64,000 bases of DNA, taken from positions 4,597,501 through 4,661,500 of the forward strand of contig NZ_CP034562.1 of NCBI RefSeq assembly GCF_003970675.1, written 5' to 3'. Source of the stretch: Flammeovirga pectinis (GTDB taxonomy: Bacteria; Bacteroidota; Bacteroidia; Cytophagales; Flammeovirgaceae). A program made the position numbers and the translations under genes. Below are positions 3,401-13,382 of this stretch, one piece after another; positions within the stretch are counted from its first letter, which is position 1, and each line of letters starts with the position of its first letter. Below the pieces are notes generated by a model. The model made no database searches. It was not told the origin of the DNA and saw nothing but the letters and a program-made list of their open reading frames with translations.

Positions 3401-6400
3401 GATTCTAGATCTTCAAAACCTGACAATTCTTTCATGTTATCTTTCCAAGCATAAGAATAGTTTGGAATAACACTTGCCGGCTGAATTTCTTTTTGCTCAT
3501 ATAACCAATGAGATCCCAATGGTAATACTTCAAGGTCTGCTTCACCTGCTGAGTTATCAACAATTATTGATAATAGATCACTTTCACCTGCATTTAATGT
3601 GAAAAAACGCTCTGAGTTATCAACATTAATCATTGGTGCGTGGATAACATTTGCTGTAATTGGGAATGTATATACAGTTCCTAATTCATCTGTTACAATA
3701 AGATTATCTTCTAAAGGACCATCTACGGTTGCTGTAAAAGATACTTTTAGTGTTTCTGAAAGACGAGGGTCAATAGTAAATGTATTTTTATCTACTGTAA
3801 ATAATCCATTTTCTACAACCGCAGAAGTAAAATTAATAGGCTTATTTCCTTGGTTCCTAAACATTACAACCGTTGATGGTGACGCTGTTTTGTACACATC
3901 TCCGAACGGTAAGTCATCTCTTGTTGTCGTTACAATTGCTTCTCCACCACTTATTACATCTGCATGTAAAGTAAAGTGTGCAAGAGGTGTTAAAGGATCG
4001 TTAGTAAAGATGGATACATTTTGAGTGTTTCTCATTTCGTCTAAACCTTCTGTAACTACATCATAAGTAATATCTACAGATTGTCCAACAGGAACTACAC
4101 CTTTTACACTACTTAAATTTCTAGCTATTTTTCTACCTGGATGATTTACTTTAATCGTTACATTAGAATTCTTAGAAGAAAATAATTTTTCAGGTTGCAG
4201 AGAGTTTTCATAGATATAAAAACCATCTTTTTTATCTGGACTTTCCACTCCAATAAATGGAGCATTAGAATTTCTGATTCCCCAAACATCTTGATATCTA
4301 TATTCAATATTACCATCAGCATAGAGTACTATTTGATACGTAATTTTATGTGATTCATTAAAATCATCTTCTTCTGGCTTAGAATACAAGTTTTTGTATT
4401 CCATGATCACATAGTTACTAAATCTTTTATATAGAAATTTAGTATCAAGCCCAATATTAGTATATAAATATAAACCTGCTACATACCCGTTAGAAGTAAA
4501 ATTCGAGCCTAATAGCTTACCCCAACTACCATTCACCGGATCTTTGGTATCTAAAGCAATCATACCTACATGAGAAACATGCATTTCATTTACGAGAGTA
4601 TCAAAGAAAGGGAATTCAAATCCTAGTTCAACATCAATAAAATCTAAGAATGAATTATCTTTAAACTGTTGAGTAAAATCAAGAACATCTTCTTGACCTT
4701 CTAATTCTTCCCAAACAAAATTATCTGAAACTAAATCCCATGAGTAACCAAAACGATGAACACCTTCTTCTCTATCTTCATCATAAAGAGGAATAGAATA
4801 TTGCAATGGATAATTACCTAAATTATTGATTGTAAATAATCCTGTATCAGTTCCTCCTAAAGGAAGAGTGTAAGCTTGCTCTACCGGAGTAACCTCTATT
4901 TTAGACGGTTCAATACCAACTGCTGTTAGATTAATTTCAAATGATCCTCCATAAGTATTATCTGTAAAAACAAACTTTGCAGTTTCAGTACCTGCTTGAG
5001 TAGGTGTATATTTTAAAGTAATTTGATTTACTTTTCTAGCATAGAAAGTATAAGGTTTTTGTGTCAATTCAAATGATGTACTTCCTTCTAACGTTACATT
5101 ATTTGCTAATTTGAAAATACCATAACCATAGTTTGCTACTTCAATTATTAATTCTTTTTCATGCCCTACCTGAACACTTCCGAAATCAACAATATCAAAC
5201 GTTTTCATATCCGAAGTATGACCTTCTACTTTCGTAGAAATATTCAATTTCTTTAGTGGTTCTACAGGGTCATTTGATTCTACAAATAATACAGAAGTAT
5301 AAGATCCATTTACTAACGTAGAGGCGTCTACAGTTGCTATAATCGTTTGTTCTGAATTCCCTAAAACATCACCAGAAGCGGGAGCCAATGTAATAAATTC
5401 ACCTACAGAAGGATTTTTACTAATTGCTGAGAATAAAAATGATTGTGTTTTATCATATACTGCATCTACTAAATAAGACCACGATTTCCCATCATCATCA
5501 CTGTAGAACATTTTATCTTCTCCCTCAGTTGTGAAATTATATTCACCTATTACAAGAGGATATTTATTTCCTGCAGGTATTCTTGCTACCAACCAAAATA
5601 CTTCACCTTCAGAGAAAAATAATTGTTCTTCTAAATTAAAGTAATGAATATCTCTTTTTTGTGGTTCTAATTCTTGCTCCCATTTTAAAGTTGCTGAACT
5701 CAAAATATTACCTTGATACACCTGTATTTTGGTAGTACCTTCAGTAAGATCATTCAAGAAAATCTCAAAATTTGTAAGGTTAAAACCACCTTCTGGAGCA
5801 ATATACGCTACGGCTGCAGTATTTGATTTTGCTAGATCATTATCTCCTATAAAGAATGAAGGAGAGAACCATTTGTTACAGTATTCTAAATACTGATCTT
5901 CAAACTCTTCTAATTCAGCATGATCATTTAATGACATTACATCTATTTGAGGATAAACCTCTCGTCCAACATTAGAAGGTTCTACAAGTGCACCTGCCGA
6001 TAACGTTGCATAATTCTTTGGGTAGTGATTTTTATATCTTGCCTCTAAAGAATAAATTAATTTGCCTTCTTCTTCATTAAGAAATATAATCTCATCAGAA
6101 GCAGTTGTAGAAGTTACTAAATCAGCTGTGATAGATAATGAAGATTTAGAAAATGTAAGCTTAGGCCCTAAGTTTGTTGCACCTACAATAGAAGAAGATA
6201 AAGCTGATTCATTTCCCCATCTATCTTTTGCTAAAATGGCAAATGAATATTCTGTCTCTGCAGCAAGTTCATTTAATCTATACTCATTCCACTCTCCCAA
6301 TCCACTTGCTGAATTAACAACAACTTTTGTAGCTGATGCTAAATCAAATACTCCTTCATTGTAATAAATTTCAAAAGTACTTGCTTGTCCATCATCTTCA

Positions 6401-8004
6401 TCCGAAGGTGTAATCCATTTTAAAGCAATATGATCCACACCTGCATATGCTACTTCAAATAAAGTTACATCATCAGGAATTAATCCTTCATTTTCTTTTA
6501 GAGCAAAAGACGCATCAATTCTACCAGTACCTAATTGCCCGATATAATTAGGATTTAAGTCGTCAATACTTACTACACCATTTAATAGCTGAGCTTTTAG
6601 TTTAGATGGAGTCATTGTTTCTCCTCCTAAATGAGATAAAACTAAAGCTGCAATACCTGATACATGAGGACAAGCCATAGATGTACCCTGGAAAAAACCA
6701 TAATCATTTCCTGGTAAAGTTGATAATACGCCATTAATTTGACCTGTAGTTGTTTCTCCACCTGGTGCCGATAATTCTATCCAATCACCATAATTAGAGT
6801 AATCAGCTTTTGTATCATTTGGTCCTGTTGATGCTACTGTAAAGCAGTTTTCATAATACCCAGGGTACCATTTTCCATCAAGATTACTATTACCAGATGC
6901 AAAAATTACAATACCACCTTTCATTGGTGCTCCTTCATAATCTCCTGCTTCAGCAATAAAATAATCGATGGCATCTAAAACTGCTTGATCAAAATATCCT
7001 TCTGTAGTATACCCCCAAGAGTTTTGAGAAATTACTGCTCCATTATTTGCTGCATAAATATAAGAGTTGGTGATATCAATAAGCGGTCCTCCAAGTATTT
7101 GGCAAGACATTAATAAAGCACCTTGATTTGTTCCGTCTCCACCTGCAACACCTGCTACTCCGATACCATTATTATTAACTGCAGATACAGTACCTCCAAC
7201 GTGTGTACCATGAGATTGAGCAGCAATATTTCCAGATGCCGAAGAAAAGTTCCATCCATAAATATCATCTATGTAACCGTTCCCATCAGAATCTTCTCCT
7301 TCAACTCCATTTAATTCGGCTTCGTTCACCCAGATGTTATTTTTTAAATCTTCATGGTTAACATCAATACCTTCATCATGAATAGAAACAATTACTCTAT
7401 TAGAGCCCATTGTAGTTTCCCATGCTTTAAATAGATTTACATCAGCACCTTTTGTCCATGTATTTGATCCATCATTATTGTAATGCCATTGCTTCTGAAG
7501 CAAAGGATCATTAACTGGCATGTTATCCGATAATGTTTGGATTTGATCTTTAGAAATTGGTTCAAATTTAGCATCTGGTTCAATTAATTGTTTCTCCTTA
7601 ATTGTCTCTGCTAATTCTACATCTGGCAAACTTGAAAAAGATTGCACAACTGCATCTAACGATACATTAGATTGCACATCCATTTGATACCATAAATGTA
7701 AATCATGTTTACGTAATTTATGTTCAAATTTAGCATTGTAAGGGAACACCCTTTTCATATTTTCTGCACCATATTGATGGGCAGTTGCATCAAAAGAAGC
7801 AATACCTAAAGTGGCAACACCTCCGTTCATTGGTGCAATTTGTAACCTTGCATCTGTGGCTTCTTTAAACTTTACTCTAATCACTCCTTGAGCTACTCCT
7901 TTAGAAAAAGTAATAGGAGTTTGTGCATAACTTTCTGAAGCATTTAATACTCCAAAAAATAAACACATCAAGAAAGTCAATACTCTTAGTAGATGAATTT
8001 TCAT
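469..8004 (-). CDS. Giant secreted S8 (subtilisin-like) peptidase with T9SS sorting domain
   Basis: The 2,511-residue protein begins with a signal peptide of about 28 residues ending in SYAQ. The subtilase domain (about 165-510) has the whole catalytic set: Asp210 (HDEGID), His265 (SHGTHVGG), oxyanion Asn328 (SQNSWG) and Ser442 (GTSMACPH). A fibronectin type III-like segment follows (about 510-620), then some 1,600 residues of immunoglobulin-like repeats of the kind that bear ASPM/HYDIN-type signatures ('...LNISTKV', 'SNDP..P'), a cadherin-like pair near 2250-2400, a short acidic Glu-rich linker, and a C-terminal domain of about 75 residues starting LRNYPNPV and ending in Lys-Lys, typical of type A T9SS sorting domains. 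It is therefore probably exported by Sec, then by the T9SS, and anchored to or released from the cell surface. The substrate is unknown. Length is far above that of ordinary subtilases because of the repeats. Confidence 0.93.
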   Translation of the reverse strand: MKIHLLRVLTFLMCLFFGVLNASESYAQTPITFSKGVAQGVIRVKFKEATDARLQIAPMNGGVATLGIASFDATAHQYGAENMKRVFPYNAKFEHKLRKHDLHLWYQMDVQSNVSLDAVVQSFSSLPDVELAETIKEKQLIEPDAKFEPISKDQIQTLSDNMPVNDPLLQKQWHYNNDGSNTWTKGADVNLFKAWETTMGSNRVIVSIHDEGIDVNHEDLKNNIWVNEAELNGVEGEDSDGNGYIDDIYGWNFSSASGNIAAQSHGTHVGGTVSAVNNNGIGVAGVAGGDGTNQGALLMSCQILGGPLIDITNSYIYAANNGAVISQNSWGYTTEGYFDQAVLDAIDYFIAEAGDYEGAPMKGGIVIFASGNSNLDGKWYPGYYENCFTVASTGPNDTKADYSNYGDWIELSAPGGETTTGQINGVLSTLPGNDYGFFQGTSMACPHVSGIAALVLSHLGGETMTPSKLKAQLLNGVVSIDDLNPNYIGQLGTGRIDASFALKENEGLIPDDVTLFEVAYAGVDHIALKWITPSDEDDGQASTFEIYYNEGVFDLASATKVVVNSASGLGEWNEYRLNELAAETEYSFAILAKDRWGNESALSSSIVGATNLGPKLTFSKSSLSITADLVTSTTASDEIIFLNEEEGKLIYSLEARYKNHYPKNYATLSAGALVEPSNVGREVYPQIDVMSLNDHAELEEFEDQYLEYCNKWFSPSFFIGDNDLAKSNTAAVAYIAPEGGFNLTNFEIFLNDLTEGTTKIQVYQGNILSSATLKWEQELEPQKRDIHYFNLEEQLFFSEGEVFWLVARIPAGNKYPLVIGEYNFTTEGEDKMFYSDDDGKSWSYLVDAVYDKTQSFLFSAISKNPSVGEFITLAPASGDVLGNSEQTIIATVDASTLVNGSYTSVLFVESNDPVEPLKKLNISTKVEGHTSDMKTFDIVDFGSVQVGHEKELIIEVANYGYGIFKLANNVTLEGSTSFELTQKPYTFYARKVNQITLKYTPTQAGTETAKFVFTDNTYGGSFEINLTAVGIEPSKIEVTPVEQAYTLPLGGTDTGLFTINNLGNYPLQYSIPLYDEDREEGVHRFGYSWDLVSDNFVWEELEGQEDVLDFTQQFKDNSFLDFIDVELGFEFPFFDTLVNEMHVSHVGMIALDTKDPVNGSWGKLLGSNFTSNGYVAGLYLYTNIGLDTKFLYKRFSNYVIMEYKNLYSKPEEDDFNESHKITYQIVLYADGNIEYRYQDVWGIRNSNAPFIGVESPDKKDGFYIYENSLQPEKLFSSKNSNVTIKVNHPGRKIARNLSSVKGVVPVGQSVDITYDVVTEGLDEMRNTQNVSIFTNDPLTPLAHFTLHADVISGGEAIVTTTRDDLPFGDVYKTASPSTVVMFRNQGNKPINFTSAVVENGLFTVDKNTFTIDPRLSETLKVSFTATVDGPLEDNLIVTDELGTVYTFPITANVIHAPMINVDNSERFFTLNAGESDLLSIIVDNSAGEADLEVLPLGSHWLYEQKEIQPASVIPNYSYAWKDNMKELSGFEDLESPSYQFIDITKNGEKIDIELDDYWKPVKLPFTFEYYGINYDSVYIGIHGQISFNYYNGAPLGDKIWYPLEIPFAPDINNIVTPLWMAGETDYYDENPNKGIWYYEDEEKFVVTYERYQHFGNIMGGHATAETVFYKDGRIKMQYKTWNQDGVDFWSKWLTIGLENHDGTEGVMVNFYRSYIRDGLVIEYTPTEKTIIPAGESKTLNFAVDAGNLLDGQYKTTLALQSESPNNEKVEVPVNLTVNGIAILQWDKEVIDLGDLLWSQGQSLEVILNTQNIGTKGLDLMEMKSIKGTNPTIEIWGYNLDWDGNPFGDPLWKNTAFFDPMWAPWPGIAPSENLSTRISVSPIESGVFLDSIIVNDNMGLTDTLVIRANLILPPNMEIAADTIHQVSFDNQSVIMDEIVVSNVEGASDLAYSVEVEYPRQGMINSTSILNTENIATPLSASRLQSVSSGIGVLNTEFDDEINYFKGYEKAGGIGYGANGFSTLTKFKAPNTGFNLSHVSTWYVPAGLANAELMITVGVGDIDNPTVLHQQSFLTETAFDDLEGSLLTFELNKAIQFYPGETIYMIITYPFGPARPQGFVESAETMSDISYIEANGTWLDVTTDNRFPLLLWMNALHQSAKIAPWVTLSSFEGTVTAGSSEKIDVTFSPSNTISSYEEAMFKFMSNDKTAEVEVVVTSLTSNTAPEFIELPSMVEMDEASEKMIKVVAHDIEGHAITFNIEENVLVKSTSTSNDTLFINLTTDYESAGDYVLDVTATDEHGVSTSTQIEVLVSDVNRAPIAIEQDTLFLFLDNTPTFLDPSVIFSDEDEDALTFGIAASDDGKVMASMSQGQFAILGLVEGVTEVALIATDVHGASGMTMLVVDVSEKDVVEEEEEELPTAVDKDILEKINLRNYPNPVINKTTFTFTLPQQGDVVIQIFNLNGVVEKIISMGTLSNGNHELNVDLAPLSNGIHIYTISINGTVKTYNKLMKK

Positions 8005-9544: not shown

Positions 9545-11350
9545 TTAAACTACAAAGAAAGGATATGCTTCTTTCTCTATTAATTCATCAGCTAACTCTC
9601 TTCTTAATGCATGAACATTTTCTAATTCATACTTTGTAAAACGTTTTAAGCCCATCAACATTACACGTTGCTCATCGCCAGTGGCAATACCTGCAATTGC
9701 TTCTCTTCCAGATACTGCTACAGCTTCTGCTGCTTCGCGAATAAATATCTTAGAGATGTTGATTTGTTGCTTAGCTGCAGCTTCACCTTTTTCTTCTACT
9801 AACTTCTCTGTACGAAGAATTGCAGATTCAGCAGCATAAATTTGAATTAGCATATCAGCAACGTTCATTAAAATTTCTTGCTGATCATTGATTTTAGCTT
9901 CAAAAACCTGTACAGATCTACCTGCTACCATCAATGCTGCTTTTTTCAAGCGCTTTAAAATATCTTTTTCTGTAGTGAATAATACAGATGTATCAAGCGT
10001 TTCGAAAGAAGGTACACTTGTTAATTCTTTTGCTACATCCATTGCTGGAGAAACAATATCAAGTTCTCCTTTCATGGCACGTTTAATCATCATGCCTACT
10101 AGAAGCATTCTGTTTATTTCATTTGTACCTTCATAGATTCTAGAAATACGAGCATCTCTATATGCTCTTTCCATTGGTGCATCAGCAGAAAAGCCCATAC
10201 CACCATAAACCTGAACTCCTTCATCTACTACAAAATCTAAGACTTCTGAACCGAAGACTTTAAGAATTGCACATTCAATAGCGAATTGTTCAACTCCTTT
10301 TAATTTTGCTTTTGCATCGTCCATACCACTTGCTAAAAGCTCGTCTGTATGGTCTTCTATATTTTGACCAGCTCTATAACACATCGACTCAATTACGTAT
10401 GTTTTTGTTGCCATTTGAGCAAGTTTTTGCTTGATAGCTCCAAAGTTTGAGATCGGTTGTTTAAACTGCTTTCTTTCTTTAGAATATCTGATTGAATGGT
10501 TGATTACTGCACGACATCCCCCTAAAACACCTGCACCTAATTTAGCACGTCCGATATTTAGAATGTTTACTGCGATTTTAAAACCATTACCTCTTTCAGA
10601 TAACATGTTCTCTACAGGAACCTTACAATCGTTAAAGAATACCTGACGAGTAGAAGATCCTTTAATTCCTAATTTCTCTTCTTCTTCGTTCATTGTAATT
10701 CCGCCAAACGACTTTTCTACAATAAATGAAGAGTAGTTTTTATCATCACCAATTTTTGCAAAAACAATAAATAGTTCAGCAAACCCAGCATTTGATATCC
10801 ACATTTTTTGTCCTGTAATAAGATAGTGCTTACCATCTTCTGAAAGAACTGCTTTTGTTTTACCAGAGTTTGCATCAGAGCCAGCATCTGGCTCTGTTAG
10901 TGCGTAAGCTGCAGCCCACTCACCAGTAGCTAATTTTGGTAAATACTTATCTTTTTGCTCTTGTGTACCATAATACAAAATTGGTAATGTACCAATACCT
11001 GTATGTGCACCATAAGTTGTAGAGAACGAACCTGCTTCTCCAAATACATCAGCAATCAACATAGATGTATTGAAGCTCATTCCTAAACCACCTAATTCTT
11101 CTGGAACAGAAATACCTAATAAGCCAAGTTCACCTGCCTTATCAAAAATATTTTCTACCAATTCCCAGTTATGACCATCAATTTCTTTTGCCTTAGGCGT
11201 AATTTCTTGATCAATAAAATCTTTAGTGGCTTGTGCCATCATTACTTGCTCCTCCGAAAATTCTTCTGGAGTGAAAATGTCATTTGCTTCTGTTTCGCGG
11301 ATTAAAAATTCTCCACCTTTGATTGCCTTCTTATTGGTTACAGTATTCAT
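9545..11350 (-). CDS. Acyl-CoA dehydrogenase, long (VLCAD/ACAD9-like) form
   Basis: This flavoprotein should oxidise acyl-CoA to trans-2-enoyl-CoA in beta-oxidation, passing electrons to electron-transfer flavoprotein. The 601-residue length exceeds the usual 380-400 of short and medium-chain enzymes and includes a C-terminal helical extension after about residue 440, as in the very-long-chain type. Visible family motifs are YALTEPDAGSDANS (FAD/substrate loop), WISNAGFAELF, and RISRIYEGTNEINR, in which Glu407 is the catalytic base expected in YEGT. It begins with a short hydrophilic N-terminus and lacks a signal peptide. The gene is divergent from fumarase, and a pair of palindromes in the shared upstream region may be operators. 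No other beta-oxidation gene is next to it. Chain-length preference is inferred from architecture only. Confidence 0.9.
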   Translation of the reverse strand: MNTVTNKKAIKGGEFLIRETEANDIFTPEEFSEEQVMMAQATKDFIDQEITPKAKEIDGHNWELVENIFDKAGELGLLGISVPEELGGLGMSFNTSMLIADVFGEAGSFSTTYGAHTGIGTLPILYYGTQEQKDKYLPKLATGEWAAAYALTEPDAGSDANSGKTKAVLSEDGKHYLITGQKMWISNAGFAELFIVFAKIGDDKNYSSFIVEKSFGGITMNEEEEKLGIKGSSTRQVFFNDCKVPVENMLSERGNGFKIAVNILNIGRAKLGAGVLGGCRAVINHSIRYSKERKQFKQPISNFGAIKQKLAQMATKTYVIESMCYRAGQNIEDHTDELLASGMDDAKAKLKGVEQFAIECAILKVFGSEVLDFVVDEGVQVYGGMGFSADAPMERAYRDARISRIYEGTNEINRMLLVGMMIKRAMKGELDIVSPAMDVAKELTSVPSFETLDTSVLFTTEKDILKRLKKAALMVAGRSVQVFEAKINDQQEILMNVADMLIQIYAAESAILRTEKLVEEKGEAAAKQQINISKIFIREAAEAVAVSGREAIAGIATGDEQRVMLMGLKRFTKYELENVHALRRELADELIEKEAYPFFVV

Positions 11351-11467
11351 AATTCTATATCTGTATTGTTATGTGTTGTTATTGGATGAACATTAACTCT
11401 AATGAGCTTATTTATGTGTTGATTATTGGATGCTTTATCAAGAGATCTACCTTTGAAGTATGTATTA

Positions 11468-11475
11468 CAAAAGTA
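11468..11475 (-). promoter_or_regulatory. -7-like promoter element of the acyl-CoA dehydrogenase gene
   Basis: TACTTTTG on the minus strand fits the TAnnTTTG element of Bacteroidota promoters and lies 118 bases before the start codon. No clear -33 TTG is present at the usual distance; the first of two palindromes occupies that place. Confidence 0.4.
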
Positions 11476-11493
11476 TTTCTTCACTTAAAAATG

Positions 11494-11547
11494 TATGCTT
11501 GCATAACATTCATTATCCAAATATAATAAAATTATTATGCAAGCATA
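11494..11547. promoter_or_regulatory. Pair of operator-like palindromes TATGC-N2-GCATA
   Basis: TATGCTTGCATA at 11494-11505 and TATGCAAGCATA at 11536-11547 are each palindromic around two central bases, are each followed by ACATT, and have centres exactly 42 bp (about four helical turns) apart. They lie between the divergent acyl-CoA dehydrogenase and fumarase genes, and the first sits just upstream of the dehydrogenase -7 element. This looks like a double binding site of a dimeric repressor or activator. The regulator is not in the window. The remaining sequence of this 427-base interval shows nothing else clear. Confidence 0.5.
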
Positions 11548-11704
11548 ACATTATTATTAAAAAATGTTGAATCAACGTTTATTTTTTTACGAAATATTCA
11601 TTTTTGAGACGTATTCGATGTTTTGAATACAAAAATTTATTAGAATCATTAAAATCTATTTACCAAGTATGACTAATCTCACTGATGTAATCATTATCGG
11701 TGTG

Positions 11705-11712
11705 TATTTTTG
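11705..11712 (+). promoter_or_regulatory. -7-like promoter element of the fumarase gene
   Basis: TATTTTTG fits the TAnnTTTG consensus and lies 66 bases upstream of the chosen ATG. No -33 TTG is visible at the usual spacing. If it is real, transcription starts within the GTG-initiated N-terminal extension of the open frame, which supports the later ATG. Confidence 0.35.
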
Positions 11713-11777: not shown

Positions 11778-13382
11778 ATGAGCGACTTTTTTTATCAGAA
11801 GCCTTTCCCAATACAGAAAGACTCTACGAAGTACAGATTACTAACAAAAGATTTTGTTTCTACTATAGAAGTAGAAGGTAAAACATTTATTAAGGTTGAC
11901 CCTAAAGGATTAGAATTGCTTTCTAAAGAAGCAATGGCTGATGTATCCTTCTATTTAAGAACTGCACACTTAGAAAGTGTTGCTAAAATTTTAGAAGATC
12001 CAGAAGCTTCAGACAACGATCGTTTTGTTGCACGTACATTATTAGAAAATGCTGTAGTTGCAGCAGAAGGACAATTGCCAAGTTGCCAAGATACTGGTAC
12101 TGCAATTGTAATGGGTAAGAAAGGTGAAAACGTACTTACTTTTTCTAATGATGCCGAGCACTTATCAAAAGGTATATACGATACTTACCAAAGCAGAAAT
12201 CTTCGTTACTCTCAAGTTGTTCCTTTAACAATGACAGAGGAGAAGAATACAGGTACAAACCTACCTGCACAAATTGATATTTATGCTGAAAAAGGTAGTG
12301 AATATGAGTTCCTATTTATGGCTAAAGGTGGTGGTTCTGCTAACAAAACATTCTTATACCAACAGACTAAAGCGTTATTAAACGAAGAAAGCTTAACTGC
12401 TTTTGTTAAAGATAAATTAATGACAATTGGTACTGCGGCTTGCCCTCCTTACCACTTGGCATTTGTAGTAGGAGGTACTTCTGCTGAAGTAAATATGGCT
12501 ACAGTTAAGAAAGCTTCTGCTGGTTATTATGATCATTTACCTACAGAAGGTAATATGGGTGGACAGGCTTTCCGTGATGTTGAATGGGAAGAAAAGATCC
12601 AAAAAATCTGTCAAGAGAGTTTAATTGGAGCTCAATTTGGTGGTAAATATTTTACTCACGATGTAAAAGTAATTCGTTTACCTCGTCATGCAGCATCTTG
12701 CCCAGTTGGTATTGGTGTTTCTTGTTCTGCTGACCGTAATATTAAGGGTAAAATTAATGCTGATGGTATTTGGTTAGAAGACTTAGAAAGAGATCCTGCA
12801 AGATTACTTCCTACAGAAGAATCTCAAATAGATAATCCTATCGACATCGATATTGACCGTCCTATGGATGAAGTTCTTGCGGAACTATCTAAATACCCAA
12901 TCAAAACTCGCTTAAACTTAAAAGGTACATTGATTGTTGCTCGTGATATTGCTCATGCACGTATCAAAGAGATGTTAGATAATGGTGAGGCAATGCCTGA
13001 GTATTTCAAAAATCACCCAATCTATTATGCTGGTCCAGCTAAAACTCCAGAAGGAATGCCTTCAGGATCTTTTGGACCAACAACTGCTGGTAGAATGGAC
13101 TCTTATGTAGGTTTATTCCAACAACAAAGAGGTTCTATGATTATGCTTGCAAAAGGTAATCGTTCGCAACAAGTAACAGATTCTTGTAAGGAAAATGGCG
13201 GATTTTACTTAGGTTCTATTGGTGGGCCTGCTGCAATTTTAGCAAAAGAAAATATCAAATCTGTTGAGTTAGTAGACTTTGAAGATTTAGGTATGGAGGC
13301 TGTTCGTAAAATTACGATCGAAAATTTCCCTGCCTTTATTATTGTTGATGATAAAGGTAACGACTTCTTTAAAGCGTTATAA
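11778..13382 (+). CDS. fumA: Fumarate hydratase, class I (iron-sulfur)
   Basis: The 534-residue enzyme interconverts fumarate and malate in the TCA cycle. It is the oxygen-labile [4Fe-4S] class, in one chain (N-terminal fumerase domain, about 45-315, then C-terminal domain, about 320-525). The three cluster cysteines are Cys103 (LPSCQDTG), Cys222 (TAACPP) and Cys316 (GVSCSADRN); their spacing is the same as that of Cys105, Cys224 and Cys318 of E. coli FumA. The open frame continues upstream to a GTG at 11700, but that part (hydrophobic, tyrosine-rich) is unlike the family, and ATG at 11778 gives the expected N-terminus [10 protein letters not shown]. It is a single-gene unit ended by a strong terminator. 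The class is certain; the fumA rather than fumB label is conventional. Confidence 0.93.

Follow-up and report, generated by a model that had tools for sequence, protein, structure and literature searches.

Two palindromes between fadE, which encodes an acyl-CoA dehydrogenase, and a divergent fumarase gene of Flammeovirga pectinis are probably operators (we put the probability at roughly 0.87) for a dimer of a MarR-family protein encoded elsewhere in the genome, which would repress a regulon for fatty-acid degradation. In a wider sense, we consider it likely that a MarR-type protein is the master repressor of fatty-acid degradation in several orders of one Bacteroidota class, that it takes the role of FadR by means of TTATGCN2GCATAA placed over the −33 region of promoters that are unusual in this phylum, and that its reach to acpP-fabF in Flammeovirga couples fatty-acid breakdown and synthesis. 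This reading is built on sequence comparison, which shows the sites themselves, how far they are conserved, that they go with MarR, and how the fadE and marR promoters are arranged around them. The relevant features of the window, by which we mean the whole 64,000-nucleotide stretch of DNA that was analysed, are the following.

9545..11350, minus strand: fadE, acyl-CoA dehydrogenase, 601 aa (NCBIfam NF058590 FadE, 798.6 bits, cutoff 600; Pfam acyl-CoA dehydrogenase domains)
11468..11475, minus strand: TACTTTTG, the fadE element of the original prediction, not conserved and probably not the promoter box (at that place in 2/9 Flammeovirga)
11494..11505, no strand: Operator 2, fadE-proximal, predicted just past the transcription start (exact TATGCTTGCATA, matrix 21.5, conserved pair; extended palindrome 11490-11509)
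11518..11525, minus strand: predicted −7 box of fadE, TATATTTG, flanked by the two operators (in 15/17 genomes with the pair)
11536..11547, no strand: Operator 1, fadE-distal, predicted to cover the fadE −33 region (exact TATGCAAGCATA, matrix 26.5, conserved pair; extended palindrome 11532-11551)
11705..11712, plus strand: TATTTTTG, predicted fumarase −7 box, apart from the operators (same box in 9/9 Flammeovirga)
11778..13382, plus strand: class I fumarase of 534 aa, divergent from fadE and unlikely to be a target (Pfam Fumerase)

Both palindromes are exact, their starts lie 42 bp apart and each continues with ACATT, just as the original prediction had described; together they form a long imperfect inverted repeat. 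Within the 64-kb window, three matches with at most one mismatch were found where 2.1 would be expected, a count that 37 of 100 shuffles attain. The palindrome count inside the window alone is weak evidence, and the case rests on comparison. For this, a 20-bp weight matrix was derived from 67 distinct sites, none of them from the window's genome or its nearest relative. In a scan of the window with this matrix the pair ranks first and second (26.5 and 21.5 bits), the next-best place scores 4.9 bits and the maximum over 20 Markov-randomised windows is 14.8.

The exact-site pair at fadE is present in all nine Flammeovirga genomes, in seven other genomes of the family and in one of another family, and a single site was found in three more. 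Conservation across species, named beforehand as a check, is thus observed in 17 genomes. The fixed phasing of four helical turns that had been proposed along with it does not hold: the spacing is 39, 41, 42, 44, 46 or 47 bp across these 17 genomes and not confined to whole turns, so that strict helical phasing of a cooperative pair was discarded, and it is the bracketing of the promoter that is conserved rather than the exact phase.

The bracketed promoter was located by its −7 box. As far as the available text of PMC9723704 goes, mapped Flavobacterium promoters carry TAnnTTTG at −12 to −5 relative to the start; with this offset, the box at 11518-11525 puts the predicted fadE start near 11513, and the proximal operator therefore just downstream of it. 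TATATTTG occurs between the operators in 9/9 Flammeovirga and in six of the eight other family genomes whose fadE was read. A box is found in 16 of the 17 pairs, as TATATTTG in 15 and as TACTTTTG in one. TATATTTG starts 16-17 bp after the centre of the distal operator in 11 pairs and 21-22 bp after it in four; the inter-operator stretch, the promoter box excepted, varies in length and letters. The element that the original prediction had assigned to fadE is indeed present at 11468-11475 but is not conserved, and it was rejected as the fadE promoter box in favour of the conserved TATATTTG between the sites. Separately, the fadE leader (11369-11432) holds an imperfect duplication in which TTATGTGTTG and TTATTGGATG each occur twice, 43-44 bp apart; both units are doubled here and in the nearest relative alone, and the CATCCAATAA unit is found once or twice in five other Flammeovirga. 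A putative cyclase gene (PF04199; 8508-9272, minus strand) lies on the same strand as fadE, 272 bp downstream.

The window's genome (6.68 Mb, three contigs) contains nine exact TATGCN2GCATA sites, three of them intragenic and six intergenic. The intergenic ones precede fadE (two), etfB-etfA, acpP-fabF, a gene that matches both nitronate-monooxygenase (NMO) and FabK models without reaching the FabK cutoff, and the marR-fadB-fadA operon; apart from this NMO/FabK-like gene, all of these are genes of fatty-acid metabolism. A FadL-family outer-membrane gene and a thiolase gene each have a one-mismatch site in front of them, the former with flanks that complete the 20-bp palindrome bar one position; a third such site, at C2:1367201, lies inside an unrelated gene. 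The site that was to be sought at other beta-oxidation genes is present there. What is found, one site common to several beta-oxidation genes and conserved in relatives, is as expected of a fatty-acid degradation regulon and supports the proposal that a dimeric regulator of fatty-acid oxidation uses these palindromes as operators. A reversed pattern, itself CpG-rich, gave no match in the window's genome and 0-7 in relatives, among the matches listed. By itself, the genome-wide site count is weak support.

The gene marR (G000:C1:3768996-3769511) is the first of the marR-fadB-fadA operon, which carries the same operator. Its product of 172 residues contains a winged-helix domain (Pfam MarR PF01047, 41.9 bits, cutoff 24.6). 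It reaches the cutoff of none of the named NCBIfam regulator models, and its domain matches are of MarR type or to other winged-helix or HTH families, with no TetR or GntR DNA-binding domain among them. The protein is 84-87% identical to the MarR of five named Flammeovirga genomes, and a clear orthologue is encoded in 29 of the 38 genomes of the order. Read by eye, these 29 marR genes show an exact upstream site in 23 cases (including L073, where it overlaps a listed ORF start), a one-mismatch site in three (L072, L078, L079) and an exact site between marR and fadB in one (L064); of the other two, one lies at a contig end (L066) and one has neither a site nor an adjacent fadB (L074). L066, whose contig ends at marR, and L081, a 28% paralogue, were set aside; counting them in gives 22/30.

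A search of 296 genomes of the phylum (E up to 1e-12) returned MarR orthologues in 54, of which 12 belong to the window's order and 42 lie elsewhere in its class. All 54 were read: the site stands within 450 bp upstream of marR in 46 as an exact match and in 50 if one mismatch is allowed. Palindromes, frequently at the promoter of the regulator's own gene, are the usual operators of MarR proteins. The four without a site have 36-38% identity; three lack a fadB neighbour and one stands beside fadB. Fifty-nine palindromes built from rearranged half-sites (TATGC) matched exactly nowhere in the marR, fadE or etfB set; in the fabF set none exceeded 1/30. At those marR promoters that have the site, TAnnTTTG begins 17-18 bp past the operator centre (19/25 at the level of the order, 16/27 further ones), which places the marR operator near −29, over the −33 region. 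When the query is taken together with 56 orthologue rows of 40% identity or more, the winged-helix residues G65, E67, S70, L71, R73 and L75 show conservation of 95% or higher, and this fits one conserved operator. A structure model of a MarR orthologue (five close sequences) was poor, with a pLDDT of 61, and adds no weight. As a second pair geometry, seven loci (L158, L161, L162, L169, L179, L181, L327) carry two sites upstream of marR, 29-30 bp apart, and at L331-L335 a second operator lies 78-83 bp further upstream.

To relate fadE sites to the presence of MarR, the 36 of 38 genomes of the order in which fadE was found were considered; outside these counts stand G017, which has MarR and gave no fadE match, and G024, which has neither. 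In all 28 genomes that have both MarR and fadE, the fadE gene is either equipped with a site of its own or located behind marR, on the same strand and no more than 8 kb away; in the second arrangement the gene order suggests a common operon. Four genomes of the second kind were read through: the order marR-fadB-fadA-fadE is plainly visible in three, and in L347, the fourth, longer overlapping ORFs hide marR and fadA. In two of the eight genomes with fadE behind marR (G029, G032) the marR site has one mismatch. An own exact fadE site was found in 20 of the 24 MarR-bearing genomes read versus none of six MarR-less ones (Fisher p = 0.00035), and by genus in 11/15 versus 0/6 (p = 0.0039), both p values being rough because the genomes are related and not independent. 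Taking all MarR-less genomes, none of eight fadE upstream regions has an exact site, and one has a one-mismatch match about 240 bp upstream.

Other candidate targets differ in how far they are conserved. The etfB site is exact at 17 of the 30 loci read, i.e. at 17/26 from MarR-bearing and 0/4 from MarR-less genomes. Among 30 acpP-fabF loci, the site is found in all nine Flammeovirga (seven exact, two with one mismatch) and in one other genome of the family; a further one-mismatch match, at L314, is weak and has unlike flanks. At locus L012 the operator occupies 5256-5267 and the fatty-acid synthesis genes acpP-fabF occupy 5360-6973. The FadL site, with one mismatch, is present in 9/9 Flammeovirga and at none of ten loci elsewhere. 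The thiolase was dropped as a conserved target: a site occurs at 2/30 loci, and allowing two mismatches adds only scattered, poor matches (two loci of that test had only ~250-300 bp of upstream DNA). No exact TAnnTTTG stands at the marR/fadE offset at etfB, acpP, fadL or the NMO/FabK-like gene, and a one-mismatch box was found at this offset at four etfB loci; control at these genes may thus work differently.

The original prediction had suggested that control is possibly shared with the divergent fumarase, a TCA-cycle gene. That the pair jointly governs fadE and fumarase, linking beta-oxidation to the TCA cycle, would agree with its position between the two genes in 9/9 Flammeovirga. However, we regard it as quite unlikely: the operators lie 167-211 bp from the fumarase TATTTTTG box in these nine genomes, and three other genomes in which this fumarase is placed elsewhere have no site at it. 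In those three, fadE keeps the pair beside other neighbours in two and lies behind marR in the third. On these grounds fumarase was rejected as a target, and it looks like a bystander. Even less can be said for chance palindromes, or for a hairpin or terminator acting as RNA in this intergenic stretch, a possibility that we consider negligible; the insignificant one-mismatch count in the window and the long imperfect inverted repeat would be compatible with it, but neither the sites in 20/24 MarR-bearing genomes nor the failure of all 59 rearranged palindromes to match is, and the sequence between the sites varies except for the box.

With regard to the protein that binds, a TetR or GntR regulator had been named as one to look for; the site goes with marR instead, and the TetR/GntR reading was rejected on this ground. 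One could still argue that some other regulator, e.g. a TetR protein, occupies the sites and that marR itself is merely one of its targets, given that other bacteria use FadR proteins of the TetR type for this purpose (PMC5597230 and PMC6449355, in the text available, concern such FadR). The presence of the site at 50/54 marR orthologues, together with the absence of exact fadE sites from 8/8 MarR-less genomes, renders this very unlikely. An unlikely alternative is that MarR does bind but activates, or represses some promoters and activates others. MarR-type activators exist according to the accessible part of PMC5487221, and the sites at etfB, acpP and fadL deviate from the repressor-like offset. 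At marR and fadE, on the other hand, the prediction puts the centre of the operator near −29, over −33, and a second operator past the start at fadE; this suits blocking.

For repression by MarR we propose the following scheme, in which the binding itself, the negative sign of the control and the acyl-CoA signal are what we infer. The operator is a palindrome whose core is TTATGCNNGCATAA and whose flanks are rich in A/T. At fadE, one MarR dimer would cover the −33 region and a second one the transcription start, with the −7 box between them, so that RNA polymerase would be kept off. Further targets of repression by this protein would be its own marR-fadB-fadA operon and etfBA and, in Flammeovirga, acpP-fabF, fadL and the NMO/FabK-like gene as well. 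MarR would let go when fatty acids enter the cell, probably sensing them as acyl-CoA; this signal is suggested by analogy, because CouR and FerC are released by CoA thioesters and FabT senses acyl-ACP.

In other bacteria, the role is filled by different protein families. FadR of Bacillus and that of Thermus, which we take to be a TetR-family member as well, act in the same capacity on comparable genes. The dehydrogenase encoded in the window passes the FadE model of the Bacillus type, whereas the regulators differ, with a TetR fold and other operators there and a MarR protein and TATGCN2GCATA here. FadR of E. coli is a GntR-family protein and links genes of fatty-acid breakdown and synthesis; it is set apart by its GntR fold and another operator, and the MarR protein described here gives no GntR match. 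Closer in family is FabT of Streptococcus and Enterococcus, according to the accessible text a MarR-family repressor of lipid genes whose gene likewise leads the operon it controls (PMC13046290) and which senses an acyl thioester (PMC5487221, in the part available). FabT, however, governs fatty-acid synthesis and is strengthened by acyl-ACP, while the sites here are mainly at degradation genes: marR precedes fadB and fadA, and synthesis is touched by the acpP-fabF site only. The MarR protein scores 23.8 bits against the FabT equivalog model NF050133, below its cutoff of 200. CouR and FerC are, as far as the available text of PMC5487221 describes them, MarR repressors of catabolic genes that CoA thioesters release, and CouR (6c28) is among the PDB sequence matches of the MarR protein (E 1.9e-05); they serve aromatic rather than fatty-acid catabolism, and the similarity is at family level only.

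MarR control of lipid genes as such is already known. A literature search covering mostly titles and the beginnings of abstracts, and few subscription papers, found no earlier description of the motif or the regulon, and from our own reading, which is no survey, fatty-acid regulation in Bacteroidota seems little known. In Flavobacterium psychrophilum, beta-oxidation genes rise with fish mucus and plasma in a transcriptome study (PMC9723704, text as available), as expected for an inducible regulon. The study, in the text available, ties no regulator to this rise, and the word MarR is absent from its main text. With the present analysis, a candidate regulator, its operator and the promoter position are named precisely enough for direct tests. 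Alongside the TetR and GntR proteins that take this role elsewhere, MarR would be a third family, and the operator offers a handle for annotating fatty-acid genes in related genomes.

Among the matches listed for further genomes, many exact sites lie inside reading frames and resemble chance occurrences. Three of nine do so in G002, where L117 is intergenic and stands beside genes for which no link to fatty acids was found, and three of nine in G006; in G015 (12 of 15 sites read) seven are in ORFs and five intergenic, with L142 unexplained, and in G021 all of the 8 of 10 sites read are in ORFs. The sites of L134, L135 and L136 (G035, G032) are also within ORFs. In the MarR-less genomes G019 (3 of 6 read) and G036 (3 of 3), five of six sites are in ORFs and the sixth (L253) is without a fatty-acid link.

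Elsewhere the operator also precedes an acyl-CoA dehydrogenase paralogue (L144) and a second fadB (L130). At L129 and L145 it stands beside small phasin-like proteins, named by eye, which hints at a link to storage granules. In G015, an operator (L143, 2501-2512) lies 38 bp before the gene of a 455-residue membrane protein for which the search gave no name. In G037, neighbouring gene copies for a 635-636-residue protein (L132 and L133) each have an operator about 180 bp upstream.
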